Shown here piece by piece: positions 2,492 through 51,930 of a stretch of 64,000 nt of DNA. Source of the DNA: Deltaproteobacteria bacterium. Lineage in GTDB: Bacteria; Desulfobacterota; Desulfarculia; Adiutricales; Adiutricaceae. The translations under genes and the position numbers were made by a program. The stretch spans positions 1 through 64,000 of the forward strand of contig JAISEL010000112.1 of NCBI GenBank assembly GCA_031264185.1, in the 5' to 3' direction. The notes beneath the pieces were generated by a model. That model had not been told where the DNA came from, made no database searches, and saw only the letters and a program-made list of their open reading frames with translations. The stretch's first letter is position 1. Each line of letters opens with the position of its first letter.

Positions 2492-2501
2492 AATCGTCGC
2501 C

Positions 2502-4412: not shown

Positions 4413-4424
4413 TTCCGCCTCCTT

Positions 4425-22873: not shown

Positions 22874-23977
22874 TCATATAATGATTCCAAAATTGATGCC
22901 AACGATTTGTTTGAAGGTATAAGAGAACGAATTCCTAATAATATTTGAGGCGCCGTCTTTGGACCGCCTCACTTCTGAGCAGCACACGCGCTGTTTAATG
23001 AGCGTTTTACATACGGCCTCTGCTGCCCCGCTGCCAACAGGCCGGTTATTTGCTCTTTCGCGCCGGTAATGTGTTCTGCCTTTCTGATTATTGAGGTGCA
23101 CAAGAACTTTATCCAATTCTTCGGCAGATGGTTTTTTGAGCGCCTGCCGCCGCTCTTCCAGTTCATCAATTAGTAAATCCACACCATTATTGTTTGAGTG
23201 CTTTATTTTGCGGAGCCAAGTCTCAGTCCTCCCATCCCTGTCGGATGGTTTTTTGGGGAAAAGAATGTCCGACGCTTTGCAGACATAAGCCGGCATATGA
23301 TGGGAATCAAGAACTTGCACGTCAGTTCCTGGGGTCAGCCGCACCCAGTTGTGAGCCGCTCCGCCGGCAATTCCCTGAACTGCAGCATTCGGAAGCAGGG
23401 ATTCAGCTCCGGACAACTCCAGCTCAAGGCGTTCCAAAAATGTCTCTTTCCCGTATTCCGGAACTTCACCCGCATAAACAGCGCTGCGGCGCCCGCAGTC
23501 TTTATCAGCCAGGGAGACGACACCGGCCATGGCTTCTCTAAAAGTCGGCTTTTTATCCTTATCCTTCAGCAGCAGAGCTGTTCCGTCCAAACTGACTGAA
23601 ATGGCACTAATTTCGTCTTTATTTTGATCTTTGGCACCATCATATTTGATGAAAGATTCAGAATTTTTGGCTAATTCTCCGACTTTATCTGATAATTTTG
23701 TTATATAGTCCCTGCTGACATACACATCATGGTCATCGAATAAATCGGTCTGTACGGCGGCTGAAGGCATATTGGCCGTCTTTGGCGCAGCCAATTTGGC
23801 GAACCGGGGCGTCAAATTCAGAACCATACGAGCCTTGCTCTCCATAGGGAAATATCTTTTGCCGCCTTCAACTGACCGGCAGGCCTGCCGCATAACATTA
23901 GCGGCGCCAAAGGAATTGACAGCGGCTTAGACAGCCTATTCCGTCTCCAGCATATTTCCCTTAGGAGTAAATTTCAT
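22874..23977 (-). pseudogene. ISKra4-family transposase, 5'-decayed
   Basis: The open part (22874-23893, 339 aa from an internal Met) contains family signatures LTPRFAKLAAPKTANM, VLDSHHMPAYV and NNRPVGSGAAEAVCKTLIKQR. The reading frame can be followed upstream in phase, with family-like SFGAANV, but is interrupted by TAG and TAA stops near 23920-23938, and the N-terminal zinc-ribbon half is missing or unrecognisable. The gene is therefore broken. Confidence 0.8.
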
Positions 23978-26521: not shown

Positions 26522-27907
26522 CTATAGGGTCTCAGATGATTTCCCGGCCGACAGAGACAGATTCTGGGCGCACATGGGCACAAGCCTGCCCCCGGCCTGC
26601 AGATAATGGTTGCAGCATTTGACCAGACGGGCCAGATCAAAGGAATAGGGATCCATCAGTCCGTGGACAAAGACGCTTTTAACCGACTCCCGGCCTGCCT
26701 CAAACGCCCGGTTGGGCGAAAAGTCCTGACCTTCCAGGCGCTTTAAAAAGCTCCGGATCCGGCTCATCAGGACTTTATCTTCCTGGCTGGGCGACAGAGC
26801 CGACCAGCGGTCGTAAATTTTGTCTAAAATGATCTGATGCCCTTCCGGCTCCAGACCTGGAAAAGAGCGGTTGGCCGTGACCCTGAGGTATTCTTCCAGG
26901 CCCAAAAACTCCATTAATGACAAAAATTCCCCATCCCGGACTTTAAAATAGTAGGCGGAAGCGGCGCAGCCCGGATGGGAGCAGGCGATGGGAGCCAGAT
27001 CTCCCGGCTTTATGAATTTGGAAGTCTCCAGATTGTTTACGACCTCGTCGATGGTCAGACGCAAATCGGGCGAGAAATTATCCTGCGCCCGGCCTGAGAC
27101 CGCCGCCGGCTGAATCATGAGGCTTAAGGCTTTGGACTTAAAAAAATAATCGGCTACCTGCGGAATCTCCCGCTCGCTTACGCCTCTGGCCGCCACAGTC
27201 ACCAGAGAGTACGGCAGATCCTCCTGTTCAAAAATACGGATGATTTCCTTTTTAGTCTGAAGAAGATTCCGTCCCCTCAGGGTCTCATAAGTCGCCTCGG
27301 TCAGGCCGTCAAACTGGAGAGCGGCCACGACCCGGTTTTTAATGAACAGATCTCTTAAGGCTTTATCTTTCAGAAGTCTCAGGCCGTTGGTGGAGACGGT
27401 CAGCTGGGCCACTCCCAGTTCGGCTGATATGTCTATAAACTCAGAAAACCTGGGGTGCAGCGTCGGTTCCCCGCCGGACAGATTAAGCAAGATAAGCGAT
27501 TCTTCGTAAGAGCGCAATTTTAAAAGGGACTCCCGAAACTCCTCCGGCGACATTTCAAAAACTGCCTCCCTGGGTTTCAGGCAAACAGGACAGGCCAGGT
27601 CGCATCGGCTGGTTATTTCGGCAATCGGCAGGCAGGTATGCTGACGGTGCTGGGGACAAAGACCGCAGGAATCAGGGCAGCCTTTAAAATCGGAAGTAAA
27701 GCGGTATTTCGGCCGCACCCCGGGCCGGATATGGTTAAAATAAGCTTTATAGCGCCGGACGTCTCTGGAGATTAAGACTTTTTCCGAACCGTGAACAGGA
27801 CACATCTTATCCAGCAGGATACAGCCGTCCTCTTCCGTAAGTCCGGCCGGAATCAGTTCCCGGCACTCGGGGCACCAGCCGGTCGTCAGAGCATAAAACC
27901 TGGCCAT
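26522..27907 (-). CDS. Radical SAM enzyme, MJ0619/tetraether-lipid-synthase-like (second copy)
   Basis: A 461-residue radical SAM protein, last gene of the operon. In order: an N-terminal zinc-ribbon pair (WCPEC, Cys 12 and 15, with MCPVHG); a Cys group CPDSCGLCPQH (Cys 77, 81, 84); the radical SAM motif RCDLACPVCL (Cys 102, 106, 109), which binds the [4Fe-4S] cluster and SAM; the GGEP motif LLNLSGGEPTLHP; and a C-terminal segment with VHGLMDPYSFDLARLVKCC. The CPxxCGLC...CxxxCxxC layout is that of the MJ0619 family, whose members include archaeal tetraether lipid synthase. The start overlaps the stop of the preceding gene (TAATG). Homology to the neighbouring 502-residue protein over its full length points to duplication. 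Substrate unknown; an acyl-ACP or lipid is inferred from context. Confidence 0.88.
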   Translation of the reverse strand: MARFYALTTGWCPECRELIPAGLTEEDGCILLDKMCPVHGSEKVLISRDVRRYKAYFNHIRPGVRPKYRFTSDFKGCPDSCGLCPQHRQHTCLPIAEITSRCDLACPVCLKPREAVFEMSPEEFRESLLKLRSYEESLILLNLSGGEPTLHPRFSEFIDISAELGVAQLTVSTNGLRLLKDKALRDLFIKNRVVAALQFDGLTEATYETLRGRNLLQTKKEIIRIFEQEDLPYSLVTVAARGVSEREIPQVADYFFKSKALSLMIQPAAVSGRAQDNFSPDLRLTIDEVVNNLETSKFIKPGDLAPIACSHPGCAASAYYFKVRDGEFLSLMEFLGLEEYLRVTANRSFPGLEPEGHQIILDKIYDRWSALSPSQEDKVLMSRIRSFLKRLEGQDFSPNRAFEAGRESVKSVFVHGLMDPYSFDLARLVKCCNHYLQAGGRLVPMCAQNLSLSAGKSSETL

Positions 27908-29415
27908 TAACGGCCCTCTTCGGCCCAGAACCGGGGATCCCGGCAGCGGTAAATCAGATTATAGGCGCAGGCCGGCCGAAAACTGCCATCCTCTTCCGGC
28001 ACCAGATCCCCGCAGGTGGCCACCCTGGCCAGATCAAAATTATCCTGGTCCATATGAGCGTGGAGGCAAACAGTCTTTATGATCCCGGTGCTCTCGGCGG
28101 CCCGCCTCAGGTTGTTCTGGACCTGCAGCTCGTCACGGCCAGGCCCGTCAGCAGCGGTAAAAAGAGCCGAAACCAGCTTTTTTATGAGCCTTAACTGTTC
28201 CAAAGAGGCTCCGGCCGCCCAAAGGCTGTTTATTTTGTCTCTGACGCTCCGGGACAGTTCATCGGTCGGCCTCATGAGGTAACCAAAGGAAGTAGCCCGG
28301 GTCAGGATCTCGGGTTCGGCCAAAGAAGTCAGAGGGACCATGGCGGCCGAGTCTATCAGATAGTAGGCCACAGAATAGCACAGAGCATGGTAAGAGCCGT
28401 GGGCGAAAAAATCGGTCGGTCTTATATTGGCGTCTGACAGCCCGTTTTCGACCTCTTCTATGGTGGCTCTTTTTTTAGGTTCAAACCTGCTGCCGTGGTA
28501 ACCGGTGTACGTTACAGTCTGTATAGTCACGCCCTTGATGAACGTCCGGGCAAAATAGCGCCTGATTAAAAGCCCAATCTCCCGGTCGTTTATGCCCGGC
28601 ATCCAGACTATAAGAAGAATTGTCGGCACTTCCAGTCTTTCCAGCCGTTCCAGAGCCGAAAGCTTGGCCCCGACAATATCCCGGCCATGAACAATTATAC
28701 TGGTCAGGGGATCCAAAGTGTCCAAGGACAAAATGACCTGGGCCCCTGTGCTTTTGATTTTTTTAACCAGTTCTTCATCCTCGGCCAGTTTCAGGCCGTT
28801 GGAGTTAACGCTTATCCGGTCAAACGATCGCCGGGCGCACTGTTCCAGCAGTTCGGGCAGAGCCGGATGCAGCGTAGGTTCACCGCCGGTTATGTTTAAA
28901 AGATCCAATGTCTCGGACTGGGCCTCAATGACCTCTAAGATTTTCTCCAGCTCTCCGGGCGTCTTATGGTACGTCAGATCCTTTCGGTTGTGGGTAAAGC
29001 AGATGGGGCAGGCCAGCTGGCACTGATTGGTCACGGAGAAAATCGGCAGCCTTAGCCTTCCCAGATGAGCCCGGCACAGTCCGCAGTCAAAAGGGCATCC
29101 GTCAGTTACCGGTTTTAGGCCGACTGCCGGACCCAGCTCCAGACCAGGCCCGACACGCTCCGAAAACCATTTCGCTGTTTCGGCCACTTTATTTTTCCGG
29201 GAGCCGCCGGACGGACACAGGCGATCCATATAAACGCCCCTGGAATTGGCGGCGTAGAGAGCCGGTTCGGTCTTTTGACACTCCGGACACCAGGCCCGGG
29301 TGCTGCCTAATATCTCGTCATAGGATCCTGCCGGATCTGCGGCCTCCGGGCCGCATCCGCAGTCGGGACCGCAGCCTAAAGCTCCGGCCATGGGTATCTT
29401 AAGGCTCATGCTCAT
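27907..29415 (-). CDS. Radical SAM enzyme, MJ0619/tetraether-lipid-synthase-like (first copy)
   Basis: A 502-residue paralogue of the next gene. It has an extra Cys-rich leader (GCGPDCGCG, Cys 15, 19, 21), then WCPEC (Cys 43, 46), CPFDCGLC (Cys 107, 111, 114), the radical SAM motif QCQLACPICF (Cys 132, 136, 139) and NITGGEPTLHP. The C-terminus has HAHMDQDNFDLARVATC and RPACAYNLIYRC, so extra Fe-S clusters are likely. The start lies 17 nt inside the cysteine desulfurase gene, which implies translational coupling. Family members join unreactive carbons or insert groups through a 5'-deoxyadenosyl radical. Here the neighbours suggest an acyl chain as substrate, which is inference. Confidence 0.88.
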   Translation of the reverse strand: MSMSLKIPMAGALGCGPDCGCGPEAADPAGSYDEILGSTRAWCPECQKTEPALYAANSRGVYMDRLCPSGGSRKNKVAETAKWFSERVGPGLELGPAVGLKPVTDGCPFDCGLCRAHLGRLRLPIFSVTNQCQLACPICFTHNRKDLTYHKTPGELEKILEVIEAQSETLDLLNITGGEPTLHPALPELLEQCARRSFDRISVNSNGLKLAEDEELVKKIKSTGAQVILSLDTLDPLTSIIVHGRDIVGAKLSALERLERLEVPTILLIVWMPGINDREIGLLIRRYFARTFIKGVTIQTVTYTGYHGSRFEPKKRATIEEVENGLSDANIRPTDFFAHGSYHALCYSVAYYLIDSAAMVPLTSLAEPEILTRATSFGYLMRPTDELSRSVRDKINSLWAAGASLEQLRLIKKLVSALFTAADGPGRDELQVQNNLRRAAESTGIIKTVCLHAHMDQDNFDLARVATCGDLVPEEDGSFRPACAYNLIYRCRDPRFWAEEGR

Positions 29416-30910
29416 TTCCTTCTTCCCGGCTTAAGGCCTCAATACGGGCCAAAAAATCGGGCCGGGTCATCTTAAGGCCCCAAAGACCGAAAGCCAGAAC
29501 GCTTAGATTTTTAAATCCCCGGCGCCTGAGCCTCCAGGCCATAATGGGCGCATCGTAACCGGCGTCACAGGTTAAAAGGAGAGGCCCGGCGGGCTTTAGC
29601 TCTTCCCAGGCCGAACTATCGGCCAAAGCTGTAACCCGGCTGCCCGGCAGAGGTTTTTGGCCCTGAAACCTGGGAAAGCGCTTTATATGGATAACTGTTA
29701 GATCTTTTTGAAAGAGGAAATCTTCGGTCAGATCCCCCGGTTTCAGAACGGTTATCCTTTTATGCTCATCACCCAATAAAATGATCTTAAAAATCTTAAG
29801 AACATAAGCCAGTTCCCGGGGGGAGAAATCATGACCAAAGGACAGACGCAAAGTCGAACGAGCCGCTTCCGGGCTCAGACCTATGGCTGTAAGGGCGTGG
29901 GAGGGGTCATTTTCTCCGGTCCGGCAGGCCGAGCCAGCCGCCGCGCTGATACCGTGAAAGTCCAGCTGCCCCAGTAAAAAGGCATTATCCAAGCCCGGCA
30001 GGGTCAGGCTGACCGTGCCGGGCTGACTGCCGCTGCCTGGGGGTGTATTAAAACTGACCCGGGGATAAAATTCTGAAATCTTTTCAATAAACGTTTCTTT
30101 CAGCTGTCTTAGGCCTGAGGTTTTGCCCAGTAAAACCGGGATGTCCCTGGCGGCGGCGGCCAGGCCGGCCAGATTATGAAGAGACTCTGTTCCGGCCCGG
30201 CGGCCGTTTTCCTGCCCTCCGCCGACCATAAAAGGGGCAAAAGGTGCGCCGGTTTTGACGTACAGAGCCCCTACCCCTTTGGGACCGTAGATTTTATGAG
30301 CCGAAAAACTGGCATAATCAACCCCTAAATCTGTCAAATCCAAAGGCGTCTTACCCAGAGCCTGTACCAGATCGGAAAACAGAAAGGCCCCATTCAGATG
30401 AACAAACTCGGCCATGGCCTTTAAGTCATACAAAGTGCCGGTCTCATTATTGGCCCCCATCAGGACCGCTAAACCGATTTCGTCCGACCATTGGCGCTTG
30501 AGATCGGCCACTCCGATTCGGCCGTACCGGTCCGGCTCGGCCGCTATGAGCTTGTAACTATCTTCGGCCAGAAGCCTCAAAGGTTCCAGGACGGCCGGAT
30601 GCTCCATGGGGTTATAGATAATAGATCGCCGGCCGGAAGGCATAAGAGGGGCGATAGACCTCAAGTGATTATTGGCTTCCGTGGCTCCGGAGGTGAAGAT
30701 TATTGTATCTGGCCCGACATTTAAGGCCGCCGCCAGATCTTGCCTGGCCCCTTCCACCAGTTGAGCGGCCAGGCGGCCGTCGCGGTACGGAGTCGACGGA
30801 TTAGCCTGAAAAGAAGTCAGAATTTTGAGCATAGCTTTCCGGACCGAACGGCTGACCGGAGTAGTGGCATTATGATCGCAATTGACTTTTTTTCTCAGCC
30901 GAAACATCAT
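29399..30910 (-). CDS. Cysteine desulfurase fused to a rhodanese-like domain
   Basis: A 503-residue, two-domain sulfur-transfer protein. Residues 1-385 are a NifS/IscS-type PLP enzyme: CDHNATTPV near the start, FTSGATEANN, the PLP lysine in SFSAHKIYGPKG (about 206) and the catalytic Cys in GSACRTGENDPSHAL (about 328). After a linker, residues 400-490 form a rhodanese-like domain whose active loop is TCDAGYDA (Cys about 447), followed by WRLRRRGFKNLSVLAFGLWGL. The natural reading is transfer of persulfide sulfur from the first to the second domain, either to build Fe-S clusters for the three radical SAM enzymes or to supply sulfur for the product. It starts 53 nt after the ACP gene with AAAGGG before the ATG. 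Confidence 0.85.
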   Translation of the reverse strand: MMFRLRKKVNCDHNATTPVSRSVRKAMLKILTSFQANPSTPYRDGRLAAQLVEGARQDLAAALNVGPDTIIFTSGATEANNHLRSIAPLMPSGRRSIIYNPMEHPAVLEPLRLLAEDSYKLIAAEPDRYGRIGVADLKRQWSDEIGLAVLMGANNETGTLYDLKAMAEFVHLNGAFLFSDLVQALGKTPLDLTDLGVDYASFSAHKIYGPKGVGALYVKTGAPFAPFMVGGGQENGRRAGTESLHNLAGLAAAARDIPVLLGKTSGLRQLKETFIEKISEFYPRVSFNTPPGSGSQPGTVSLTLPGLDNAFLLGQLDFHGISAAAGSACRTGENDPSHALTAIGLSPEAARSTLRLSFGHDFSPRELAYVLKIFKIILLGDEHKRITVLKPGDLTEDFLFQKDLTVIHIKRFPRFQGQKPLPGSRVTALADSSAWEELKPAGPLLLTCDAGYDAPIMAWRLRRRGFKNLSVLAFGLWGLKMTRPDFLARIEALSREEGNEHEP

Positions 30911-30963
30911 CCGGCCCTTTCAGATACTTCCATTAAGCTGTCCGACAGCCTCTTTGCGCCCCT

Positions 30964-31377
30964 TCACTTCACCTGGCCCTTAAGACCGTCGGTCACCAGA
31001 TTCATAAACGTTCTGACCCGGAAAACTTCGCCTAAATTAGCCACCGGCAGGCCTTCGTACAGCTCATCTGCGGGTACGCACGGCATGGCTTTCCGGAACT
31101 CGGCAACGGCTGCGGCCGTATACTGGCCGTTTTCGGAAACAGGAGCCTGACCCAGAGCGGCCCTGACTTTCAGTTCGTAATCTTTGGGATTTAAGCGGAC
31201 CCTAAAGCGCCTTTCCAGCCTGAAAATAAGATCCAGCAAATCCAGGGAATCCAGGCCCAAATCGCCCACCAGCTTTTGGTTGGCCTCAAAATCAGGGATG
31301 GAGCGGCCTAAACTTGCTTCCAAACATTCTTTCAGCCCATTAAACAAATCCTGCTCGTCAATTGTCACGGGTGTCAC
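30964..31377 (-). CDS. Acyl carrier protein with C-terminal extension
   Basis: A 137-residue carrier protein. The phosphopantetheine site is LGLDSLDLLDL (Ser 44), preceded by the usual QKLVGDLG, and the helix after it is acidic/amphipathic. At 137 residues it is much longer than a typical ACP (about 80): residues 80-137 form an unknown tail including CVPADELYEGLPV. The start is GTG (31375-31377) with AGGAG nine bases upstream. It lies directly after the nitroreductase gene in the operon and is presumably the dedicated carrier for the ketosynthases and reductases encoded upstream. Confidence 0.88.
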   Translation of the reverse strand: MTPVTIDEQDLFNGLKECLEASLGRSIPDFEANQKLVGDLGLDSLDLLDLIFRLERRFRVRLNPKDYELKVRAALGQAPVSENGQYTAAAVAEFRKAMPCVPADELYEGLPVANLGEVFRVRTFMNLVTDGLKGQVK

Positions 31378-31389
31378 GGGTCAATGCTC

Positions 31390-31998
31390 CTAAATTACGT
31401 CACTTTTAACACGGCCCAAAGCGGCCATCAAAGATATCTGAGAGTTTTGGCTGAGACCTAAAAAGGCTTCTATCTCCGCAGCTGCGAATAAGTGCCCCCC
31501 CAGGCAGCAGCCGCCCAGCCCCAGGGACACGGCAGCTAAAAGAAGCGACTCTATGGCCATGGCGGCCGATAAATGGCCGCCCCACAGAAGCTCGGCGGCG
31601 GGTCCGCCGAATTCCTGAAAAAATAAAGGCGGCCGCCTGATAACCGACACGGCCAACAATGGGGCGTTTTTAAACCAGAAAAAATTGGCCCCGTATTCAG
31701 ACATTCCCTCCCGGACGGCCTGACTTTCAAGTCCGGACAGCCTTTTGCCGTAAGCCCGCCGGGCTGTTTCGGCAAAAAGGGCTATTTCCTTTTGGTCGTC
31801 CAGCATGATGACTTTCCGGCCCCGTTGACCGCCGGCCTGGGGAGCCGAATCAAAAGCTTCGGTCAGTTTTAAAATGTCCGAACTGTCCACCGGCTCTGAC
31901 TGAAACTCCCGGACCGAACGCCTGGCGGCCAGTATGTCCATTAAGACATCGTATTGAACCTTATTAATCCGGTCATCTGAGCCGGCATCATTCACCAC
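31390..31998 (-). CDS. Nitroreductase-family flavoprotein
   Basis: A 202-residue FMN oxidoreductase. It has the family start LAARRSVREFQSEPV (FMN-phosphate Arg/Ser), APQAGGQRGRKVIML, and the C-terminal LLAAVSLGLGGCCLGG with the flavin-binding glycines. The start overlaps the stop of the SDR gene by seven bases. Family members reduce quinones, nitro groups, enones or oxidise azolines. In an ACP pathway it could set or remove a double bond, but that is inference. Confidence 0.82.
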   Translation of the reverse strand: MVNDAGSDDRINKVQYDVLMDILAARRSVREFQSEPVDSSDILKLTEAFDSAPQAGGQRGRKVIMLDDQKEIALFAETARRAYGKRLSGLESQAVREGMSEYGANFFWFKNAPLLAVSVIRRPPLFFQEFGGPAAELLWGGHLSAAMAIESLLLAAVSLGLGGCCLGGHLFAAAEIEAFLGLSQNSQISLMAALGRVKSDVI

Positions 31999-32705
31999 AG
32001 ACCCCCGTCAACCGGCAGTACGGCGCCGTTTATATAAGTTGCTTCCGGACCGGCCAGAAAGGCGACGACCTGGGCCACTTCCTCTGGCCGACCGAAGCGC
32101 CTTGAGGCTATTCTCTCCAACAGCTTGTCCCCGTAGCGGTCAATGACTCTCTGGGCCATAGGCGACCGTATGACCCCCGGAGCTACGGCGTTAATTAAAA
32201 TTCCTTTAGGTCCGACTTCCAGAGCCAGACCCCTTACCAGACGCTCCAAGGCGGCCTTGGACACGGCGTAGTTTAACTGACCGCGCCCGCCAAATCTGGC
32301 GGCCGAAGATGAAAGATGAATAATCCGTCCGCCTCCCTGGGGCAGCATTATTCTTAAAGCGGCCTGAGTAAGCCTTAAGGCCCAGTTAAAATTGACCTCA
32401 TGGACCTTCTGCCAGTCATCCGGCTCAAAACTTAAAGCGTGGCCTTCAATATTAATGCCCGAAGCATTGATTAAAAGGCCGATGGGATTATTGTTTTCCG
32501 AAATTTTCTCCAAAGCCTGAACAGGGTCGGCCAGGCTCGACAGTCTTACGGCCCGGCCGCCCAACTCGGCGGCTAAACTCTCGGCCTTACCTTCGGACTC
32601 ATTATAACCGCACCAGACTTGAAAGCCTTTGAGGGACAGAGCCCGGGCAATAGCCTGCCCCAGAGCCCCTGTAGCCCCGGCTAAAACTGCGGTTTGGCTG
32701 GACAT
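31992..32705 (-). CDS. Short-chain dehydrogenase, FabG-like ketoreductase
   Basis: A 237-residue NAD(P)H oxidoreductase. It has the Rossmann motif GATGALGQAIARAL, NASGINIEG (NAG-like), the catalytic Ser in IIHLSSSAARFGG and YAVSKAALERLVRG with the Tyr/Lys pair, then NAVAPGVIRSPM. Length and motifs fit FabG. AGGAGG lies six bases before the ATG, the strongest Shine-Dalgarno in the operon. It should reduce the 3-ketoacyl-ACP made by the ketosynthase. Confidence 0.88.
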   Translation of the reverse strand: MSSQTAVLAGATGALGQAIARALSLKGFQVWCGYNESEGKAESLAAELGGRAVRLSSLADPVQALEKISENNNPIGLLINASGINIEGHALSFEPDDWQKVHEVNFNWALRLTQAALRIMLPQGGGRIIHLSSSAARFGGRGQLNYAVSKAALERLVRGLALEVGPKGILINAVAPGVIRSPMAQRVIDRYGDKLLERIASRRFGRPEEVAQVVAFLAGPEATYINGAVLPVDGGLW

Positions 32706-32724
32706 CGGCGTCCTCCTTTATGTT

Positions 32725-33996
32725 TTAAATGACCCTTCTGAATGTCATGGCCGCATTCTGACCGCCGAACCCGAAGGAGTTGGTTAAAATAACAGAGCCG
32801 GAAAAGGGCTGACCAATGTCCTGAACATGAAAAAGCTCGCATCCCGGACCGGCCGTCTCCAGCCCGACATTGGGCGGAATGAGATTGCGCTCAAAAGCAA
32901 AAAGACAGGCCGCCGCTTCCAGAGCCCCGGCTGCGGCAATGGCGTGGCCTGTCATTGATTTAACGGCCGCCACCGGCAACTGGGGCCAGTTGGGAAAAAG
33001 TCTTCTGACCGCTCCGGCTTCAATGGGATCGTTCAGCACCGTGCCGGTACCGTGGGCGTTTAAGTGATCCACCTCCAGAGGCGAGAGCTTGGCTGCGGAC
33101 AGGGCCGCCTCCATGGCCCGAAAAGCGCCTGAACCGGCCGGGTCCGGGGCGCTCAGACTGTAGGCGTCCAAACTGGCCCCGTAGCTTAAAATCTCCCCGT
33201 AAATCTTCCGGCCGCAGGCTCTGGCTTTTTCCAAAGGTTCCAGAACCATGACCGCCGCCCCTTCACCCATGACCAGACCTCTTCTCTGGACATCAAAAGG
33301 ACGGCAAAGGGGCCAGGGCTCTTCCGGTTCGCCTTCGGCCAAAGCTCCCAGCAGATAAAAGCCGCCCAGGCCTAAAGGATTAATCAGGGAATCAAAAGCT
33401 CCGGCCACAGCCAGCTCAAACTCTCCCCCGGCCACGGCCCGGTACGCCTGGCCCAGGGCTTCCAATCCGGCCGCGCAGGCAGAGCAGTTAGTCAGGCTGA
33501 GACCGGCCCGCCCGTAACGGGCTTCAATCAGACTGACCGCCCGGTCCAGAGGAATTCTCAGGGAGGCCCCGACCATAAGCTTTTGGGTGGCCAGGGGATC
33601 TAAGCCTTTAATCGAACCCACGGCGGCCAAAGAAAATGTCTCCAGGCTCACGCCCAGATGAATAAGGGTTTTCCGGTCAAAACTTTTCAGGCCCGCCTCT
33701 TCTACGGCCTCTTCGGCTGCCGCCAGGGCAAAGGCAATCTTAATGTCCCTGTCCAGAGTCTGTTCCAAAGACAAACCGCCTGTCCCGGAAACGCAGCCGT
33801 AAGAATCGGTCAGCTCTTTAATTAATTCGTCCGTTCTGGGAACTTCTCCGGCCCAATGCGCCGGCAGACCGGCCGTATCAAAGCGAGTCACCGGCTTAAG
33901 GCCTCCCAGCCCGGCGGCTATAGAGTCAAAAAAAACCCGGCGGCCCCGACCGAACGGCGAGACTATCCCCAGTCCGGTGACGGCTACCCTTCTCAT
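32725..33996 (-). CDS. Beta-ketoacyl-ACP synthase II-like, catalytically complete
   Basis: A 423-residue condensing enzyme of the FabF type. The catalytic triad is present: Cys in NCSACAAGLEALGQA (about 170), His in NAHGTGTVLNDP (about 313) and His in MTGHAIAAAGALEA (about 349), ending with NSFGFGGQNAAMTF. The start shares ATGA with the stop of the upstream ketosynthase-like gene, a sign of translational coupling between partners, as for KS-alpha/chain-length-factor pairs of type II polyketide and aryl-polyene clusters. It should extend the ACP-bound chain by decarboxylative condensation with malonyl-ACP. Confidence 0.9.
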   Translation of the reverse strand: MRRVAVTGLGIVSPFGRGRRVFFDSIAAGLGGLKPVTRFDTAGLPAHWAGEVPRTDELIKELTDSYGCVSGTGGLSLEQTLDRDIKIAFALAAAEEAVEEAGLKSFDRKTLIHLGVSLETFSLAAVGSIKGLDPLATQKLMVGASLRIPLDRAVSLIEARYGRAGLSLTNCSACAAGLEALGQAYRAVAGGEFELAVAGAFDSLINPLGLGGFYLLGALAEGEPEEPWPLCRPFDVQRRGLVMGEGAAVMVLEPLEKARACGRKIYGEILSYGASLDAYSLSAPDPAGSGAFRAMEAALSAAKLSPLEVDHLNAHGTGTVLNDPIEAGAVRRLFPNWPQLPVAAVKSMTGHAIAAAGALEAAACLFAFERNLIPPNVGLETAGPGCELFHVQDIGQPFSGSVILTNSFGFGGQNAAMTFRRVI

Positions 33997-34937
33997 GCGG
34001 CATTGACCTCAAAACTGAACCGGTGGCCCCGGGAGCAGATCAAAGAGGTATTTAAACCCAGTTCCGGAGCCAAAGAAGCCAGAAGAGCCAGGATAACCGG
34101 AGAAGCGGCCATGGTCCGGCCGAGGAAGAGGGCTAAAGGATCGTCCGGGACGGACGACTCAATTCTTTCCAGTATAACCTCATCAATTCCGGGCCGGGCC
34201 AAACAGTCACCGCCGCCGTTTCTGACTAAAACCAGAGCGGCCGAAGCCTCGGCCGCCACTTCGGATTCTTTCAGGTAGCCCAAAAGAGCTGTCTGGGCCA
34301 AACTGGCCGGCTCATTGGGACTGTCGGACGCGGCCACTACGGCCGCGTCAACCAGACCTGTCTCCAGGGCTCTGACCGCTTCTTTCAAGGCCTGAGCCCC
34401 GGCATCCTCAAATGGCGTATAGACGGCGCTCTCGCCTTTCAAGCCTTCTAAAACGGAAATAATACAGGCCGGCATATTGGCCAGAGTTTCAAAGGCCCAA
34501 AGGGGATTGACCGACTTAAGACCGCAGCTTACAAACTTTTCCGGCTCAAACACTCCCTGACTGTTGACCGAGGCCGCCAGAATCTCCAGACCGGCCTGAC
34601 GATCCACAGAAGTCAAGCCCGCCCCGACAAATAAGCCGATTCGGTCAGGCTCAAAACCTTTTTTCATGAGTTCAGCCTGACCAAGAGCTTCCCTGGCCGC
34701 CAAAGCGGCCAGAAAGGCCTGTCCGGACATATACTTGCGCATTTTCCTGAAAGCCGGATCATCGGGCAGTTCTGGACTGGGAGTTTGGACGGCCCGGAAA
34801 TTGGCCCAGGGACTGCCTTCCAAAAGCTGTAAGCGGCGCCCGGTGACCTTCCGGCCCTTTTTCAGAGCCGAAATCGTCTCCTCAAGGCCGCCGAAAGGGC
34901 TTATCAGACCGGCCCCGACTACAGATATCCTACTCAA
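33993..34937 (-). CDS. Ketosynthase-like protein lacking the active-site Cys (chain-length-factor-like)
   Basis: About 314 residues if started at TTG 34937, which overlaps the dehydratase stop by eight bases and gives the typical beta-strand start LSRISVVGAGLISPFGG; an ATG at 34970 would add 11 residues unlike the family. It has the fold (KYMSGQAFLAALAAREAL, NMPACIISVLEGLKGES), but where FabF has TACA the sequence is VYTPFEDAGAQAL, so the nucleophilic Cys is replaced. The HGTGT and GH motifs of the second half are also absent and the protein is about 100 residues short. It is probably a non-catalytic partner that sets chain length or primes by decarboxylation. A decayed enzyme is the alternative. 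Confidence 0.75.
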   Translation of the reverse strand: MSRISVVGAGLISPFGGLEETISALKKGRKVTGRRLQLLEGSPWANFRAVQTPSPELPDDPAFRKMRKYMSGQAFLAALAAREALGQAELMKKGFEPDRIGLFVGAGLTSVDRQAGLEILAASVNSQGVFEPEKFVSCGLKSVNPLWAFETLANMPACIISVLEGLKGESAVYTPFEDAGAQALKEAVRALETGLVDAAVVAASDSPNEPASLAQTALLGYLKESEVAAEASAALVLVRNGGGDCLARPGIDEVILERIESSVPDDPLALFLGRTMAASPVILALLASLAPELGLNTSLICSRGHRFSFEVNAA

Positions 34938-35391
34938 AACCGGCCTTTTCCAGCCAGGCGGCCAGGACATTCCGCCTGACCGCCTCCTGATGAGGGTTAT
35001 CTATCTGATGGAAGGAGAATAAGAGCTCGCAGTCGGCCGCCAGTTTGTCTTCCACTTCCGCCCTGACCTGAGCCCGGCCGCCCAATTCGTTATACTGGCT
35101 GACCTGAGAATAGTAGATAAGCTGAGCGCCGGGGTAAACAGGCCTGCGGAATCTGGCTCTTTCCACCAGACTCATCAGAGCTTTTATTTTAAGGCCGTTT
35201 TCTTTCATGGTTTCTTCCAGAAGTAATCCTGACAGCTGGGCCATGCCCTCAATAATAAGTGTTCCTGGCATAATGGGCTTTAAAGGAAAATGATCGTCAA
35301 AAAAGTCTTCCGACAAACTGACGTTTTTAAGCCCGACAGCCTCCCGGCCTGGAACCCATTTAATAATGCGATCCACCAATAAATAACGCAT
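34930..35391 (-). CDS. 3-hydroxyacyl-ACP dehydratase, FabZ-like
   Basis: A 153-residue hotdog-fold dehydratase. The active-site His sits in FFDDHFPLKPIMPGTLIIEGMAQL, which fits the FabZ motif HFPxxPxMPGxL-E-AQ with the helix Glu. The ATG at 35391 is preferred to a longer frame because AGGA lies nine bases upstream and the protein then starts at the fold (YLLVDRIIKWVPG). It lies 50 nt after the methyltransferase gene and overlaps the ketosynthase-like gene. It would dehydrate 3-hydroxyacyl-ACP in the pathway. Confidence 0.88.
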   Translation of the reverse strand: MRYLLVDRIIKWVPGREAVGLKNVSLSEDFFDDHFPLKPIMPGTLIIEGMAQLSGLLLEETMKENGLKIKALMSLVERARFRRPVYPGAQLIYYSQVSQYNELGGRAQVRAEVEDKLAADCELLFSFHQIDNPHQEAVRRNVLAAWLEKAGFE

Positions 35392-35441
35392 AAACGGTTG
35401 TCCTGCCCGAAAATCACGGTGGCCCGGATCTGACCGGACCG

Positions 35442-36059
35442 TTAATAGACAAAGGGGATAAAACGCCAGCGGACTTTCTGGCAGTACAGGCGATAATCTT
35501 CCAGCTGACTCAGAAACTTCTCTTCCCAGGCCGCTCTGGCCGCATAAAGAGCGACTGACAGGACAGCCAGACCAAAGACCCCGGCTGATGGATAAATGAG
35601 ACAATAGCCCAGACGCAGAGTGATATCGGACAGATACATAGGATGCCGGACAATTCCGTATAAAGCCCGGGTCTTAAGCCGCCTTATGGCAATCAGAATG
35701 CCGAAACTGCGGCCTAAGTTCAGAAGTGCCCCCACCGCTAAAACATTAGCCGCAATCATTAATATCCGGCCTAAATCAGCCGCCGGACCGCTTTCCTCCC
35801 CAATGAACCGAAGAAAAACCAGACCGGAAAAAAAAGCGGCTAAGGCCAGAAACTGACCGATTGCCGAAGGGGACAGTTCCCGTTCTGTCCGCCTCAGAAG
35901 GATAACCAGACAGAAGACAGCATTCTGGGCCGTCAAAGAGATCTCATAAAAGCCAAAGCCGCGAGCTGAACGCTCAGGCCAGGCCCAAACGACTCCCCAG
36001 GCGAAAAAAAGGAAAAGCGAAACATTTAAAAGCCGTTCTTCTTTCCGGGTAAAGTTCAT
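35442..36059 (-). CDS. ICMT/PEMT-family membrane methyltransferase
   Basis: A 205-residue integral membrane protein with four to five predicted helices. The C-terminal catalytic signature of isoprenylcysteine carboxyl methyltransferase-like proteins is present: RALYGIVRHPMYLSD (SAM-contacting R-HP-Y) and EEKFLSQLEDYRLYCQKV (E-x(n)-EY-x-Y). It shares an ATGA overlap with the preceding radical SAM gene. Bacterial members methylate carboxylates, amines or lipids at the membrane. In this operon it may cap an acyl product, for example as a methyl ester, which is inference. Confidence 0.83.
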   Translation of the reverse strand: MNFTRKEERLLNVSLFLFFAWGVVWAWPERSARGFGFYEISLTAQNAVFCLVILLRRTERELSPSAIGQFLALAAFFSGLVFLRFIGEESGPAADLGRILMIAANVLAVGALLNLGRSFGILIAIRRLKTRALYGIVRHPMYLSDITLRLGYCLIYPSAGVFGLAVLSVALYAARAAWEEKFLSQLEDYRLYCQKVRWRFIPFVY

Positions 36060-37078
36060 GACCGGTCCTTAGAGCCTCCGGCTTTTACCGGCTGAGGCTT
36101 AATGGCCGTCAGATGGTAGCGCCAGTTAGCCAGGCGCCCCGGTCCGTATAATAGAGGCTCCACTATGCCCCGGCAGCTGGTCCAGCATTCGTCGCAGGGG
36201 TTATTTTCAGCTGCGGCCAGGAGCTTTTTCAGAAGATCATAAAGCTCCTCCCGGACTAAACTGCCGGCCGGCTCGTCCGGCCGGTCTAAGCACCTCAAAA
36301 TCTGACCCTCCGAATCCACGGCCATCAGATTCCGGCCGTTACGGCAAAGACCCCGGTCCTGCCCGTTAAAACCGGCCAGGTAGCCCGGCAGAATCAATAG
36401 CTCAGGACAGGATTTTTGAATTTCTTTCAGCCTTAAAACAGCCCGGTTCAAGTCCAGAGGCGGATGACCCAGGCCCCGGCCCTCCACGCACACAGTCAGG
36501 CTGTGCTTGACTCCGATCCGGCGGCAGAGTTCACTTAGGGGCTCTATCTCGTCAAGGTTGTCGTCCATAACCACTGAGATGAGTCTGACCCGCTGCTCCG
36601 GCTTAACCCGGTTTTCCCATAAAAACTCCAGCGCCCGAACGGCCCGGTCAAAAAGGCCGGCAACCCCTCTCTGCCCGTCATGCCTCAAAGCCGAAGCATA
36701 ATCCAAAGAGACGCCGATTTCACTGAAGCCGGTCTTATAAAGCTCTCTGGCCAGTTCCGGGGTCATAAACCAGCCGTTGGTGACCAGATCCAAATAGTGG
36801 TCCCGGGCCAAAGGTGCGGCTATCTCCAGAAGATTGGGGTGCAGCAAAGGTTCGCCGCCCACTAAACACATAGCCAAAGGCGCAATGGCCCGAAGCTTGT
36901 CGGCCAGAATCCGGCCCGTTGCCAAAGTCATGGCCGGTCTGGAACTGAAAGGCGGCCGCCAGTAATCACAGATTCGGCAGCGGCAGTTGCAGCTATAATT
37001 GACCATGACGTTAACCTGAATCATGGTCCGGGCCAGGATTTTACCGGCCATCTTTAAAGCTTTAAAGGCTGTCAGCAT
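36056..37078 (-). CDS. Radical SAM protein with SPASM-like Cys, first gene of operon
   Basis: A 340-residue radical SAM enzyme. The cluster motif is CNCRCRIC (Cys 30, 34, 37), followed by the GGEP motif MCLVGGEPLLHP, a TNGW strand and a partial TIM barrel. The C-terminus has GLCRNGRNLMAVDSEGQILRC and CDECWTSCRG, a set of Cys typical of SPASM/twitch auxiliary clusters. It is of a different subfamily from the two MJ0619-like proteins at the other end of the operon. A promoter-like sequence lies about 80-105 bp upstream. Substrate unknown; SPASM enzymes often act on peptides or alcohols, but the operon suggests an acyl or ACP-bound substrate. Confidence 0.85.
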   Translation of the reverse strand: MLTAFKALKMAGKILARTMIQVNVMVNYSCNCRCRICDYWRPPFSSRPAMTLATGRILADKLRAIAPLAMCLVGGEPLLHPNLLEIAAPLARDHYLDLVTNGWFMTPELARELYKTGFSEIGVSLDYASALRHDGQRGVAGLFDRAVRALEFLWENRVKPEQRVRLISVVMDDNLDEIEPLSELCRRIGVKHSLTVCVEGRGLGHPPLDLNRAVLRLKEIQKSCPELLILPGYLAGFNGQDRGLCRNGRNLMAVDSEGQILRCLDRPDEPAGSLVREELYDLLKKLLAAAENNPCDECWTSCRGIVEPLLYGPGRLANWRYHLTAIKPQPVKAGGSKDRS

Positions 37079-38529: not shown

Positions 38530-40200
38530 ATGACTGAACGACTGCAAAAGCTGGAACTGACCTGGATAGGCAAGGACAAACGCCCGCGCCTGGAACCACG
38601 TATTCTGCTGGAGGACCAGGAGTTATCACATCATGCTCGGTTCCGGCGGGCTGATGACGATATTTTTGACAACCGACTCATCTTCGGCGACAACCTGTTG
38701 GCGTTGAAGGCTTTAGAGCAGGAATACACCGGCCGAGTCAAGTGCGTGTTCATCGATCCGCCCTACAATACAGGTTCGGCCTTCGAGCACTATAACGACG
38801 GTCTGGAACACTCCATCTGGCTGGGCCTTATGCGTGACCGGCTGGAACTGCTGAAACTCCTTCTGCGCGACGATGGCTCCATCTGGATCACCATTGATGA
38901 CAACGAGGCCCATTATTTGAAAGTGCTTTGCGATGAAGTGTTCGGGCGGAAGAATTTTGTTGCCACAATTATTTGGCAGAAGCTTTTTACAGTTAAAAAT
39001 TCAGCTAAGTATTTTTCTGATATGCACGAATACTTGCTTGTATATGCAAAATATATTTCCAGCTGGAATCGCAATTTGTTGCCGCGAAGCACTGAGCTTG
39101 ATAGCTCTTATACAAATCCCGATAATGATCCACGAGGCCTTTGGACAACTAATGCAATCCAAGCCCGAAACTATTATAGCCAAGGCACTTATGAGATAAA
39201 TTCTCCTACAGGGCGGACATTCACTCCACCAGCTGGGACTTATTGGAGGATTGCAAAGAATACATTTGATGAACTTGAAAAAGATGGAAGAATTTGGTGG
39301 GGTAAAGATGGAACCGCGATCCCAAGAATTAAAAAATTTTTGAGCGAAGCAAAACAAGGCGTCGTTCCTGCAACCATATGGTTTCATGAAGACGTGGGGA
39401 CCAATGCTAAAGCAAAAATAGAAGTTAGAGCTTTGTTTGAGGGTATTGGAGACGGAGACATATTCATGACTCCAAAACCTGAAAAATTGATACAACGCAT
39501 CTTAGAGATAGCCACCACACCCGGTGACCTCGTCCTGGATTCCTTCGCCGGCAGCGGCACCACGGGGGCCGTGGCACACAAGATGGGGCGACGCTGGATC
39601 ATGATCGAATTGGGCAATCACTGCCACACCCACATCATTCCCCGCCTAAAAAAAGTCATCAACGATGAGGATCCCGGCGGCATCAGCGAAGCCGTGAACT
39701 GGCACGGCGGCGGCGGCTTCCGCTATTACAAACTGGCCCCGTCGCTGCTAGCCGAAGACGGTCGGGGCTTTCCGGTCATCAATCCGGAATACAACGCGGC
39801 CATGCTGGCCGAGGCCATGTGCAAGCTCATGGGTTTCCGCTACCAGCCCAGCACGGAAATCTATTGGCAGCACGGCCAATCCACCGAAAGCTGTTATATC
39901 TACGTCACGACTCTAGCCCTGGAACAGGGAGCGCTTGCCCTGATCAGCGCCGAAGTGGGGCCGGAGCGCAGTCTTCTGATCTGCTGCCCTGGCTGGCGAG
40001 GCCCGGCCGACCAGTTCCCCAACCTGATTCTGAAAAAAATCCCCAAAGCCGTCTTGAATCGTTGCGAATGGGGCCATGACGACTATTCGCTCAACATTAA
40101 AAATTTGCCCATGCTCCGCCCCGAACCTTTGGGCAGAAAAGGCCGCGCCACCGAAGCGACCGCCCCATCACTCTTTGACCAGTTGGAGGAGGCGAAATGA
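38530..40200 (+). CDS. mod: Type III restriction-modification DNA methyltransferase (Mod)
   Basis: A 556-residue adenine methyltransferase that recognises the target for both subunits. The catalytic motif IV is FIDPPYNTGS (about 76) and the SAM motif I is DSFAGSGTTGAV (about 338); this order makes it a beta-class enzyme as usual for type III Mod. Between them (about 38940-39500, residues 137-323), where the target-recognition domain lies, the DNA is visibly AT-rich and uses different codons from the GC-rich flanks, a sign that this part was exchanged. It overlaps res by four bases (ATGA). Intact by inspection. Confidence 0.93.
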   Translation: MTERLQKLELTWIGKDKRPRLEPRILLEDQELSHHARFRRADDDIFDNRLIFGDNLLALKALEQEYTGRVKCVFIDPPYNTGSAFEHYNDGLEHSIWLGLMRDRLELLKLLLRDDGSIWITIDDNEAHYLKVLCDEVFGRKNFVATIIWQKLFTVKNSAKYFSDMHEYLLVYAKYISSWNRNLLPRSTELDSSYTNPDNDPRGLWTTNAIQARNYYSQGTYEINSPTGRTFTPPAGTYWRIAKNTFDELEKDGRIWWGKDGTAIPRIKKFLSEAKQGVVPATIWFHEDVGTNAKAKIEVRALFEGIGDGDIFMTPKPEKLIQRILEIATTPGDLVLDSFAGSGTTGAVAHKMGRRWIMIELGNHCHTHIIPRLKKVINDEDPGGISEAVNWHGGGGFRYYKLAPSLLAEDGRGFPVINPEYNAAMLAEAMCKLMGFRYQPSTEIYWQHGQSTESCYIYVTTLALEQGALALISAEVGPERSLLICCPGWRGPADQFPNLILKKIPKAVLNRCEWGHDDYSLNIKNLPMLRPEPLGRKGRATEATAPSLFDQLEEAK

Positions 40201-42995
40201 ACCGCGCTGAGTTCCACACCATCGAACGCTGCCTGTCCCTGCGGCGGCCCCAGAGCGAGGCTCTGGGCATCCTGGCCGAAGTGGCCGAACTGCTGCCTCT
40301 CTCCAAAAAGCCGGACCTGGTCCGCGACCTGGCCGCTATAACTGAACGCTTCCCCACAGTGGATGACTTCGAGCGCGGCTTCCCCTCCCTCTGTTTCGCT
40401 CTGGCCACCGGCGTCGGGAAGACCCGCCTCATGGGAGCCTTCATCGCCTACCTCCATCTGTCCAAGGGTTTCTGCAATTTTCTGGTGCTGGCGCCCAACC
40501 TCACCATATACAATAAGCTCATCGCCGACTTCACTCCCAACACGCCCAAATACGTGTTCGCGGGTCTCAGCCGCTTCAGCGTTAACCCGCCCGAAATCAT
40601 CACCGGCGACAATTATGGAGCCGGTAAGGGGTTTCGTGACGGCTGCCTCTTCGGGGCCGACCTCCGGATCAACATCTTCAACATCTCCAAGATCAACAGC
40701 GAAGTGCGCGGCGACAACCCACCACGTATGAAGCGTCTGATGGAGACCTTGGGCGAAAGCTATTTCAGCTTCCTGGCCGGCCTCCCCGATCTGGTCTTGC
40801 TGATGGACGAAGCCCACCGCTACCGGGCCACAGCGGGCCTTAACGCTATCAACGAGCTCAAGCCTGTTCTGGGTCTGGAACTGACCGCCACCCCGCAGAT
40901 TGAAAACGGCCAGAAAAGTACGCCCTTCAGAAACGTCATCTACAGCTACCCGCTCCCCCAGGCCATGGAAGACGGCTTCATCAAAGAACCGGCCGTGGCC
41001 ACTCGCGACAATTTCAACGCCGAACTCTATAATGAGGAACAGCTTGAGCGCCTCAAGCTGGAGGACGGCACGCTCATCCACGAAACCGTCAAAACCGAGC
41101 TGGCCGTCCACGCTGCCAACCATGACCTCAAACCGGTGAAACCCTTCATGCTGGTGGTCGCCCAGAACACTGCCCACGCTGAAAGTTTGCAGAAACTCAT
41201 CGAAAGCCATGAGTTCTTCGAAGGGCGCTACCAGGGTCGGGTCATCACCGTCCATTCGGCCCAGCGGGGCGAGGAAAAGGACGAAACAGTGGAACGCCTG
41301 CTTGATGTGGAAAATCCAGACGAGCCCACCGAAATCGTCATCCACGTCAACATGCTGAAAGAGGGCTGGGACGTCACCAACCTCTACACCATTGTCCCCC
41401 TGCGCACGGCAAATTCGCGCACACTGGTGGAGCAGTCCATCGGCCGGGGCTTACGTCTGCCATACGGCAAAAAAGTCGGCGTGGCCGCCCTGGACCGCCT
41501 GACCATTGTGGCCCATGACCGTTTTGACGAAATCATCCGCGAAGCCTCCGACCGAAAATCTCTCATCCGCACCGGCCTGGTCATAGGATGCGGAGACCTG
41601 GACGAAAAACCCAAGATGCAGCTGAAAGTGGCCTCGAATTTGGATCTGATGCTGGGCACGGAAACCATGCCCTTCCCGCCGGAGCTTTTTGAAAAACCGG
41701 CCGCCGGCTTCACCGCCCCGCCGACGCCTCAAATTTCCGCAGATCTCCAGGCCGCCGACAACCTCGAAACGGTCCGCGAAACTCTGGCCGTCATCAAGAC
41801 CCTGGCACACGAACAGAGTCTGCCGTCGGCCCAGGCGCTGGCCGCGCCGGAGACCAGAGCCGAGATCATTCAAAAAGTCACCGAGAACCAGCGTCCCGCC
41901 CAGGACGCTTCAGGTGACTTCAAGGAGACCGCGCCAGTGGCAGCAATTGTGGACCAGCTGACACGCACCATCATCGACAACAGCATCAATCTGCCGCACA
42001 TCATCGTGGCCCCCGAGCCGGGAGTCAATTACACCTTCAAGCCCTTCCGGCTGGACACCTCCGGCTTGGACCGCCTTACCCCGATGGAGCAGGATATTCT
42101 CATTCAGCACCTGCGCACGGCCGAAAGGGACACCATGACCAGCCGCTGCGTCAACTTCATAAACCCACGCCGGCCGGCCGACCATCTGGTAACCGCGCTC
42201 ATTAATTGCAACGACATAATATATGAAGAACACGGCGACCTCCTGCACGACCTGGCCGACCAGATGGTGACGCACCTGAGAGGCTATCTCACGGCCGGCG
42301 ACGACCTTCTGAACGTCTTGCAGTTTTACCAAAAGGAGTTGGCCGCCTTCATCCACGCCCAGATGCAGGACCATTACCAAAGCGGACCCGCCGGCTTCAC
42401 CGCCATGGTCACCGAGGGTTTCTACCTGCCCCCGCCCTACAGCTGCTCTCTGCCCCAGGACGAGATGATCTTGTATTTCCGGCACCCGGTGGCCGACAAA
42501 TCGACCATCAAGAGCCTGGCCTTTCAGGGCTTTGCCAAATGCCTCTACCCGGTTCAAAAGTTCGACAGCGACGCCGAGCGCGAATTCGCCGTGCTTCTGG
42601 AGGACGAGCCCAAGGTGCAAAAATGGTTCAGGCCCGGTCGCAGGGATTTCTACATCTACTACGCCGCTGAAAGTCGCTACGAACCCGACTTCGTGGTTGA
42701 ACTGGACGACCTCAAGCTCCTCTGCGAGCCCAAGATGAAAAAAGACATGGCCTCACCCGAAGTTCAAGCCAAAGCCGAAGCCGCCCGCCACTGGTGCCAA
42801 GCCGCCACGGCCTATGAACTGGCCCATGGCGGCAAACCTTGGAGCTACCTCTTGGTGCCGGATACGGAGATAAAGCCAAGAATGACTCTGGAGGGGCTGA
42901 TGAAGCGATATAACCTAAATTCCTCTCTTTATAGAGTAAACGCTAGTTGGCCGGTCCGACCTATAAGATCAGAACCAAAAATCCTTACTGTATGA
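40197..42995 (+). CDS. res: Type III restriction endonuclease subunit (Res)
   Basis: A 932-residue ATP-dependent helicase-nuclease. Helicase motifs: ATGVGKTRLMGAF (Walker A, about 70), LMDEAHRYRA (about 204), LELTATPQ and SIGRGLRLPYGKK. Near the C-terminus a PD-(D/E)xK nuclease site is seen as RYEPDFVVELDDLKLLCEPK (about 825-845), with the Glu-x-Lys pair in CEPK. With Mod it forms the type III complex that cleaves DNA after one-dimensional diffusion between inverted sites. Overlap with mod implies one transcript. It looks intact even though the accessory genes upstream are dead. Confidence 0.93.
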   Translation: MNRAEFHTIERCLSLRRPQSEALGILAEVAELLPLSKKPDLVRDLAAITERFPTVDDFERGFPSLCFALATGVGKTRLMGAFIAYLHLSKGFCNFLVLAPNLTIYNKLIADFTPNTPKYVFAGLSRFSVNPPEIITGDNYGAGKGFRDGCLFGADLRINIFNISKINSEVRGDNPPRMKRLMETLGESYFSFLAGLPDLVLLMDEAHRYRATAGLNAINELKPVLGLELTATPQIENGQKSTPFRNVIYSYPLPQAMEDGFIKEPAVATRDNFNAELYNEEQLERLKLEDGTLIHETVKTELAVHAANHDLKPVKPFMLVVAQNTAHAESLQKLIESHEFFEGRYQGRVITVHSAQRGEEKDETVERLLDVENPDEPTEIVIHVNMLKEGWDVTNLYTIVPLRTANSRTLVEQSIGRGLRLPYGKKVGVAALDRLTIVAHDRFDEIIREASDRKSLIRTGLVIGCGDLDEKPKMQLKVASNLDLMLGTETMPFPPELFEKPAAGFTAPPTPQISADLQAADNLETVRETLAVIKTLAHEQSLPSAQALAAPETRAEIIQKVTENQRPAQDASGDFKETAPVAAIVDQLTRTIIDNSINLPHIIVAPEPGVNYTFKPFRLDTSGLDRLTPMEQDILIQHLRTAERDTMTSRCVNFINPRRPADHLVTALINCNDIIYEEHGDLLHDLADQMVTHLRGYLTAGDDLLNVLQFYQKELAAFIHAQMQDHYQSGPAGFTAMVTEGFYLPPPYSCSLPQDEMILYFRHPVADKSTIKSLAFQGFAKCLYPVQKFDSDAEREFAVLLEDEPKVQKWFRPGRRDFYIYYAAESRYEPDFVVELDDLKLLCEPKMKKDMASPEVQAKAEAARHWCQAATAYELAHGGKPWSYLLVPDTEIKPRMTLEGLMKRYNLNSSLYRVNASWPVRPIRSEPKILTV

Positions 42996-50728: not shown

Positions 50729-50737
50729 AACAGGCCT

Positions 50738-51376: not shown

Positions 51377-51433
51377 AATTCACCATAAAAGCGTAAAACA
51401 TGATGTTACACCATAAACAGAACATTTATCGTA

Positions 51434-51898: not shown

Positions 51899-51930
51899 TG
51901 TCTGCCTCTGACATGACACAATCGCTAAAT

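Follow-up and report, generated by a model that had tools for sequence, protein, structure and literature searches.

A conserved gene cluster combining acyl-chain synthesis with two Tes-related radical SAM proteins in anaerobic bacteria

We analysed a 64,000-nucleotide stretch of DNA (the window; contig JAISEL010000112.1, positions 1 to 64,000) from a Deltaproteobacteria bacterium and found that eleven minus-strand genes at 26522-37078 very probably belong to a dedicated pathway that builds an acyl chain and then tailors it by radical chemistry. From the first gene onward, this operon encodes a radical S-adenosylmethionine (SAM) protein (rSAM1), an ICMT-type methyltransferase, a FabZ-type dehydratase, a chain-length-factor-like protein (CLF), a ketosynthase (KS), a FabG-type reductase, a nitroreductase-family protein (NTR), an acyl carrier protein (ACP), a cysteine desulfurase-rhodanese fusion (NifSR) and two radical SAM proteins related to the archaeal enzyme Tes (rSAMA and rSAMB). 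We propose, with a probability of about 0.5, that these genes represent an undescribed system, horizontally spread in anaerobes, in which the Tes-related pair, with its histidine at a cluster ligand position, sulfurises or cross-links unactivated sp3 carbons of a dedicated acyl chain from a type II synthase, yielding lipids or natural products of a new class. An earlier note on the same DNA had described the eleven-gene operon, and all of its genes were found where it had placed them. The note had also failed to recognise the combination as a described pathway, and we found no gene-for-gene match in NCBIfam or in the literature searched. The parts belong to known families; neither the pathway nor the His-signature pair is described in the literature found: no NCBIfam equivalog covers rSAMA and rSAMB, and a literature search, with most subscription papers outside its scope, returned no paper describing either the gene combination or the pair.

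Conservation of the gene block and its chain-building module

Bacterial and archaeal genomes, scanned with an alignment of rSAMA sequences, gave 27 relevant loci (L051-L077), and the block was carried by at least eight phyla, as judged from record titles. These titles named Deltaproteobacteria, Azoarcus and other Betaproteobacteria, Pelobacter, Desulfobacterales, Aquicultor (Actinomycetota), Riflebacteria, Muiribacteriota, Elusimicrobia, Planctomycetota and Aminicenantes. The carriers are anaerobic bacteria, and the whole set amounts to about fifteen genes. Including three genes from outside the operon, described below, the recurrent order was FabZ-CLF-KS-FabG-NTR-ACP-SDR2-HotdogX-rSAMA-HexY-rSAMB, whole or nearly so in the distant loci L059, L069, L072 and L160. 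Across 26 rSAMA loci, rSAMB was a neighbour in 21, SDR2 in 19, ACP in 14, KS, CLF and FabZ in 13 each, and NTR and NifSR in 12 each; many of these contigs are short, many of the loci are metagenome-assembly fragments, and later profile searches detected more neighbours. In a later search of the Riflebacteria-Muiribacteria phylum, 17 of 40 genomes carried rSAMA, and three new loci chosen by rSAMA alone (L160-L162) all contained the block. Since the block recurs in other phyla, a chance grouping of genes is excluded. The earlier note had postulated a dedicated pathway for a radically modified acyl product and had set co-occurrence across genomes beforehand as its test; the linkage proved to be conserved in a syntenic block, and the homologues were not scattered.

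The rSAMA system was found in only 2 of the 395 genomes sampled from the source phylum, and the window rSAMA groups with the rSAMAs of Azoarcus-type genomes (support 100/99). This patchy distribution, together with the grouping, indicates horizontal transfer of the system. A plasmid search with rSAMA gave only relatives of 24-29% identity. Isolate names suggest a termite-gut origin for several carrier genomes. Another radical SAM family, rSAM2 (336-500 aa), recurred in L059, L060, L062, L066, L069, L071 and L075 and was not seen in the window, and two neighbouring proteins, of 434 aa in L071 and 290 aa in L075, had no family match.

The eleven genes do not account for the full extent of the system. 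Three extra genes, SDR2, HotdogX and HexY, occur in the homologous clusters of related genomes (L037 and L038). SDR2, a second FabG-like reductase, lies at 57303-58061 of the window on the minus strand, with its start probably at ATG 58013; it is 69% identical to SDR2 within the L037 cluster, and SDR2 adjoins rSAMA in most other loci. It is overlapped by HotdogX (56767-57306, minus strand; 39% identical to its L037 counterpart), a small FabZ-fold protein without the catalytic His. Its AlphaFold2 model had a predicted local distance difference test score (pLDDT) of 84, and FabZ structures took the top Foldseek ranks. The window pair (56767-58061) sits 20 kb from the operon, and HexY, a hexapeptide acetyltransferase, lies on another contig (C114:1547-2098, 54% identical). 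Thus, the pathway is split over three places in the source genome.

Within the operon, the chain-building genes bear the expected catalytic features. KS (32725-33996, minus strand; PF00109 and PF02801) is a complete KAS II-type ketosynthase with, by alignment, the catalytic residues C174, H315, K346 and H351. Its upstream neighbour, the 325-aa CLF (33993-34970, minus strand; PF00109, the N-terminal half of ketoacyl synthases), agrees with the earlier description of a Cys-less KS-like protein: a Glu (E188), invariant in 8 homologues, occupies the position of the nucleophile Cys, and most of the C-terminal domain is missing, as expected for a chain-length-factor subunit. CLF lengths ranged from 192 to 419 aa across loci, and Glu at the Cys position characterises the window type. 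Two Riflebacteria encode CLF and KS as a single fused protein of 911-964 aa (L155:10987-13881 and L156:12274-15009), which argues that the two work as a pair. FabZ (34930-35391, minus strand; 153 aa, PF07977, E 3e-23) keeps the catalytic His and Glu regions (DDHFP and IIEGMAQ); its likely start is the ATG at 35391, not an upstream TTG. The FabG-type ketoreductase, a short-chain dehydrogenase/reductase (31992-32705, minus strand; NF009466, TIGR01830), and NTR, a flavoprotein (31390-31998, minus strand; PF00881, E 5e-21), follow KS. The cluster lacks a FabI-type enoyl reductase, and NTR could act as an enoyl or enone reductase. The dedicated ACP (30964-31377, minus strand) has a DSL serine motif; PF00550 covers residues 15-67 only, and the C-terminal extension of ~70 residues had neither a family nor a structural match. 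The source genome has a separate housekeeping fab cluster (L097), whose FabF is 35% identical to the operon KS.

This layout resembles that of aryl polyene synthases (ApeO-ApeC, ApeQ and paired dehydratases), in which a KS with a reduced CLF is combined with a paired dehydratase, and the likeness extends to the ketoreductase, the hotdog dehydratases and the dedicated ACP (PMC8358021). The product might then be a polyene-type or partly reduced secondary metabolite, with the radical SAM proteins taking on late steps such as desaturation, epimerisation or chain trimming. The KS-CLF pair, with its reduced CLF lacking the nucleophile Cys, the paired hotdog dehydratases and the missing FabI-type enzyme would all fit such a synthase (PMC8358021). 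We nevertheless consider this unlikely. No aryl starter genes, second ACP or second KS were present among the open reading frames near the operon, which instead combines a nitroreductase, SDR2, an extended ACP and a radical SAM module. Moreover, the nitroreductase may reduce enoyl groups, and the Tes chemistry known so far targets saturated chains.

The Tes-related pair rSAMA and rSAMB

The last two genes of the operon encode rSAMA (27907-29415, minus strand; 502 aa) and rSAMB (26522-27907, minus strand; 461 aa), both with a zinc-ribbon N-terminus and both recovered by Tes/TrsS-like family scans. Aligned with Tes (GDGT-MAS; MJ0619, PDB 7TOL), the rSAMA profile matched end to end (E 1e-52, hidden Markov model (HMM) positions 36-488). 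A template-free model of rSAMA (pLDDT 85) had its only full-length Foldseek match in the Tes structures 7TOL and 7TOM (TM ~0.75), and its other matches covered mainly the SAM core. The predicted metal sites are, as in Tes, a rubredoxin-like site, an N-terminal [4Fe-4S] cluster with C/C/C/H ligands, the SAM [4Fe-4S] cluster and a C-terminal [4Fe-4S] cluster. Among the Tes ligands (C9/C12/C33/H36, C73/C77/C80/H83, C98/C102/C105 and C455), the Cys residues and H83 are kept in all or nearly all sequences, and the H36 position is variable in rSAMA. Fold, domain order and metal-site Cys are thus shared with Tes, whose structure was reported with the remark that bacterial homologues of unknown role exist (PMC9433317); the cluster places two such homologues in the context of a pathway.

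Despite this likeness, the pair is distinct from both named relatives. rSAMA (100/99) and rSAMB (94/98) are each monophyletic and form sister clades, set apart together from Tes and TrsS-like proteins (100/100). Their scores against the Tes family NF045702 were 171 and 215 bits, compared with a cut-off of 450, and their best NCBIfam match was the TrsS family NF045646 at 213.9 and 242 bits, with a cut-off of 490. We therefore rejected an assignment as TrsS because of the score, and an assignment as Tes because of the score, the separate clade and a replaced ligand residue, Met439. Met439, the labile ligand, and Tyr459 are invariant in archaeal Tes (PMC9433317). At the Met439 position, we found His in 26 of 26 rSAMA, 20 of 20 rSAMB and six further sequences from L160-L162 (52 in total), an assignment from an ungapped alignment over four residues; an earlier HMM alignment had placed Met439 opposite an Ile with a gap. 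This predicts a Met-to-His ligand switch at the C-terminal cluster. At the Tyr459 position, Tyr was present in 19 of 20 rSAMB and Val in 24 of 26 rSAMA; rSAMB keeps the CCxxY motif and rSAMA lacks the second Cys of the CC. A further difference from Tes is that two copies stand in one operon, with bacterial acyl-chain genes adjacent.

TrsS-like paralogues with a conserved neighbourhood of their own occur in the same bacterial group (L041-L045), two of them in the source genome (C159 and C102). They keep Met at the labile position (5 of 5), and none of the block's neighbours was found at these five loci, save one weak desulfurase.

The ligand switch would fall on a site of mechanistic interest. 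In Tes, a substrate-sulfur bond on the C-terminal cluster precedes C-C coupling, and other clusters that form C-S bonds have unusual, non-Cys ligands (PMC9433317). The switch is testable at the cluster on which the C-S intermediate arises, and the neighbouring genes offer a makeable class of substrate, an ACP-bound chain.

The third radical SAM protein, rSAM1 (36056-37078, minus strand; 340 aa, PF04055, E 2.4e-12), has BlsE as its closest solved structure, and its orthologues lie close to rSAMA and rSAMB in 9 loci. Pfam and NCBIfam scans largely bore out the families named in the earlier note. For rSAM1, Pfam at E 0.1 gave no support to the label 'SPASM-like'; one orthologue had a sub-threshold match.

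The radical SAM genes also invite comparison with the anammox type II fatty acid synthesis clusters proposed for ladderanes, where a Cys-less KS, ACP, FabZ and radical SAM genes likewise stand together (PMC2649909). The earlier note had drawn this analogy, which is useful but does not extend to homology of the key enzyme. Of 25 planctomycete genomes that encode a hydrazine-synthase-like protein the size of HzsA, and that were recognised as anammox genomes by frame length and genome size, none had an rSAMA orthologue (best score 66 bits, compared with 719 for the control genome), and the anammox ladderane pathway is excluded at this level. Phytoene-desaturase-like genes, which the anammox clusters have, are missing here, and the operon FabZ is not especially close to anammox FabZ. 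One carrier record (L072) is titled Candidatus Kuenenia stuttgartiensis, but the title is probably misassigned, and its class is represented by two genomes in the collection. It is thus highly improbable that the cluster represents ladderane synthesis or is related gene for gene to the anammox clusters.

Desulfurase, methyltransferase and the proposed chemistry

NifSR (29399-30910, minus strand) is a NifS-type cysteine desulfurase (class V aminotransferase) with a C-terminal rhodanese-like domain. It passes the test for the NifS pyridoxal-phosphate-fold family (TIGR03402, E 3e-87) but lies below the equivalog cut-off. Its rhodanese part is below Pfam detection in the window protein; PF00581 matches the same place in the orthologues of L059, L063, L155 and L160, in agreement with the fusion described previously. 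The 205-aa ICMT/PEMT-type membrane methyltransferase (35442-36059, minus strand; PF04191, E 2.6e-9; PF04140, E 1.9e-6) has orthologues in other clusters.

These two genes were linked across loci. All 14 desulfurase-rhodanese loci with broad coverage contained a methyltransferase, 11 of them of the ICMT type. The remaining three (L160-L162) have a different, soluble methyltransferase in its place, which at L160:11662-13875 is part of a 737-aa fusion of cysteine desulfurase, rhodanese and class I methyltransferase, and which is free at L161:12944-13594 and L162:6173-6811. ICMT was present in 3 of 12 loci without desulfurase, and the association of desulfurase with ICMT alone gave a Fisher p of 0.016 over loci that are non-independent. 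The replacement of one methyltransferase by an unrelated one, in one case fused to the desulfurase, suggests a single product to which both the sulfur supply and the methyl transfer contribute.

We propose the following sequence of steps. The KS-CLF heterodimer, FabG, FabZ with its His-less partner HotdogX, SDR2, NTR and the extended ACP would use malonyl units to build a specific acyl chain, in the manner of the reducing type II synthases for aryl polyenes. rSAMA and rSAMB, with rSAM1, would then attack unactivated C-H bonds of this chain by Tes-like 5'-deoxyadenosyl radical chemistry, and the substrate radical would first be trapped as a C-S bond on the C-terminal [4Fe-4S] cluster, as in Tes. 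In the specific version, which we advance tentatively and at somewhat less than even odds, this C-S bond would be kept rather than resolved by a second chain, so that a cluster sulfide passes to the acyl chain; NifSR would replenish the sulfur, the neighbouring methyltransferase would cap the thiol, and the HexY acetyltransferase would then decorate a head group. A sulfur-containing, methyl-capped product had been guessed at in the earlier note; the desulfurase-methyltransferase linkage supports it, although the product itself is unproven. Lipoyl synthase and biotin synthase donate sulfide from a cluster to an unactivated carbon of a chain. The delivery proposed here would resemble theirs in mechanism, but the proteins belong to another family and carry other clusters.

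Alternatively, the pair might form C-C bonds as Tes does, cyclising the chain or joining two chains into a ring-containing or membrane-spanning product, with NifSR only maintaining Fe-S clusters. We regard this as possible but rather doubtful. The full-length Tes homology and metal sites, the retained CCxxY with its Tyr459 equivalent in rSAMB and the existence of desulfurase-free loci are consistent with coupling, and two Tes-like copies could cover two radical steps. However, the pair falls outside the Tes clade, Met439 is replaced, rSAMA has lost both Tyr459 and the second Cys, and coupling leaves the 14/14 co-occurrence of desulfurase and methyltransferase in the broadly mapped loci unexplained. 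Because of this linkage, C-S bond retention with methyl capping ranks slightly above C-C coupling.

Several points weigh against sulfurisation of an ACP-bound chain. Both rSAMs are present in L058, L061, L062, L069 and L073 with no desulfurase or methyltransferase nearby, and the supply of sulfur in cis is therefore not obligatory. From its residues, rSAMB could be capable of Tes-like coupling; the NifS protein could serve mere Fe-S cluster maintenance; and the substrate could be a finished lipid rather than an acyl-ACP. In addition, tree distances, whose correlations are descriptive since the loci are few and non-independent, divided the genes into a chain module (KS, CLF, FabZ, FabG, NTR and SDR2; r 0.73-0.96) and a radical module (rSAMA, rSAMB, NifSR, rSAM1 and ICMT; r 0.35-0.92), with weak correlation between the two (KS-rSAMA r 0.16) and SDR2 intermediate. 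In Pelobacter, Aquicultor and Aminicenantes (L058, L059 and L075), rSAMA resembles that of the window but KS is divergent and CLF spans only 192-199 aa, hence the weak correlation. The radical module is thus combined with different chain builders and is not tied to one chain type.

The weak correlation of the module trees and the TrsS-like relatives in the unrelated loci L041-L045 would also fit a role of the Tes-like pair and NifSR in cofactor or metalloenzyme maturation, with the acyl genes beside them by an accident of genome layout. This is very unlikely, as the same neighbours stand in the same order in at least eight phyla with rSAMA adjoining SDR2 and HotdogX, and the SDR2 and NTR trees correlate with that of rSAMA (r 0.61 and 0.46).

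If the proposed radical tailoring is correct, the cluster would provide an enzymatic route to functionalise unactivated positions of fatty chains. It would also be a source of lipids with sulfur or cross-links in anaerobic settings, among them groundwater, sediments and probably termite guts; these lipids could serve as a biomarker.

Other features of the operon and window

The operon junctions, from the first gene onward, measure -4, +50, -41, -4, +19, -7, +12, +53, -17 and -1 nt, and its G+C content is 0.55, compared with 0.48 elsewhere in the window. Genes were called mechanically, and a tRNA was the sole match in an Rfam scan. Directly upstream of the operon, on the opposite strand, lies a type III restriction-modification-like pair (38530-42995, plus strand), in which a 556-aa DNA methylase (PF01555) overlaps a 932-aa helicase/Res-like protein. 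Type IV pilus minor-pilin-like genes and a 1810-aa PilY1-like protein occupy 45296-53642 (minus strand), and an [FeFe] hydrogenase with NuoF/NuoE-like subunits, possibly electron-bifurcating, is encoded at 752-5000 (minus strand). A 1672-aa protein at 15709-20727 (plus strand) matches DUF5724, DUF4132 and DUF7737. The operon region is flanked by two minus-strand genes, one with a transposase-like appearance and no Pfam match (22874-23893) and one transposase-like gene containing a helix-turn-helix (43911-44996), which may mark mobile DNA.

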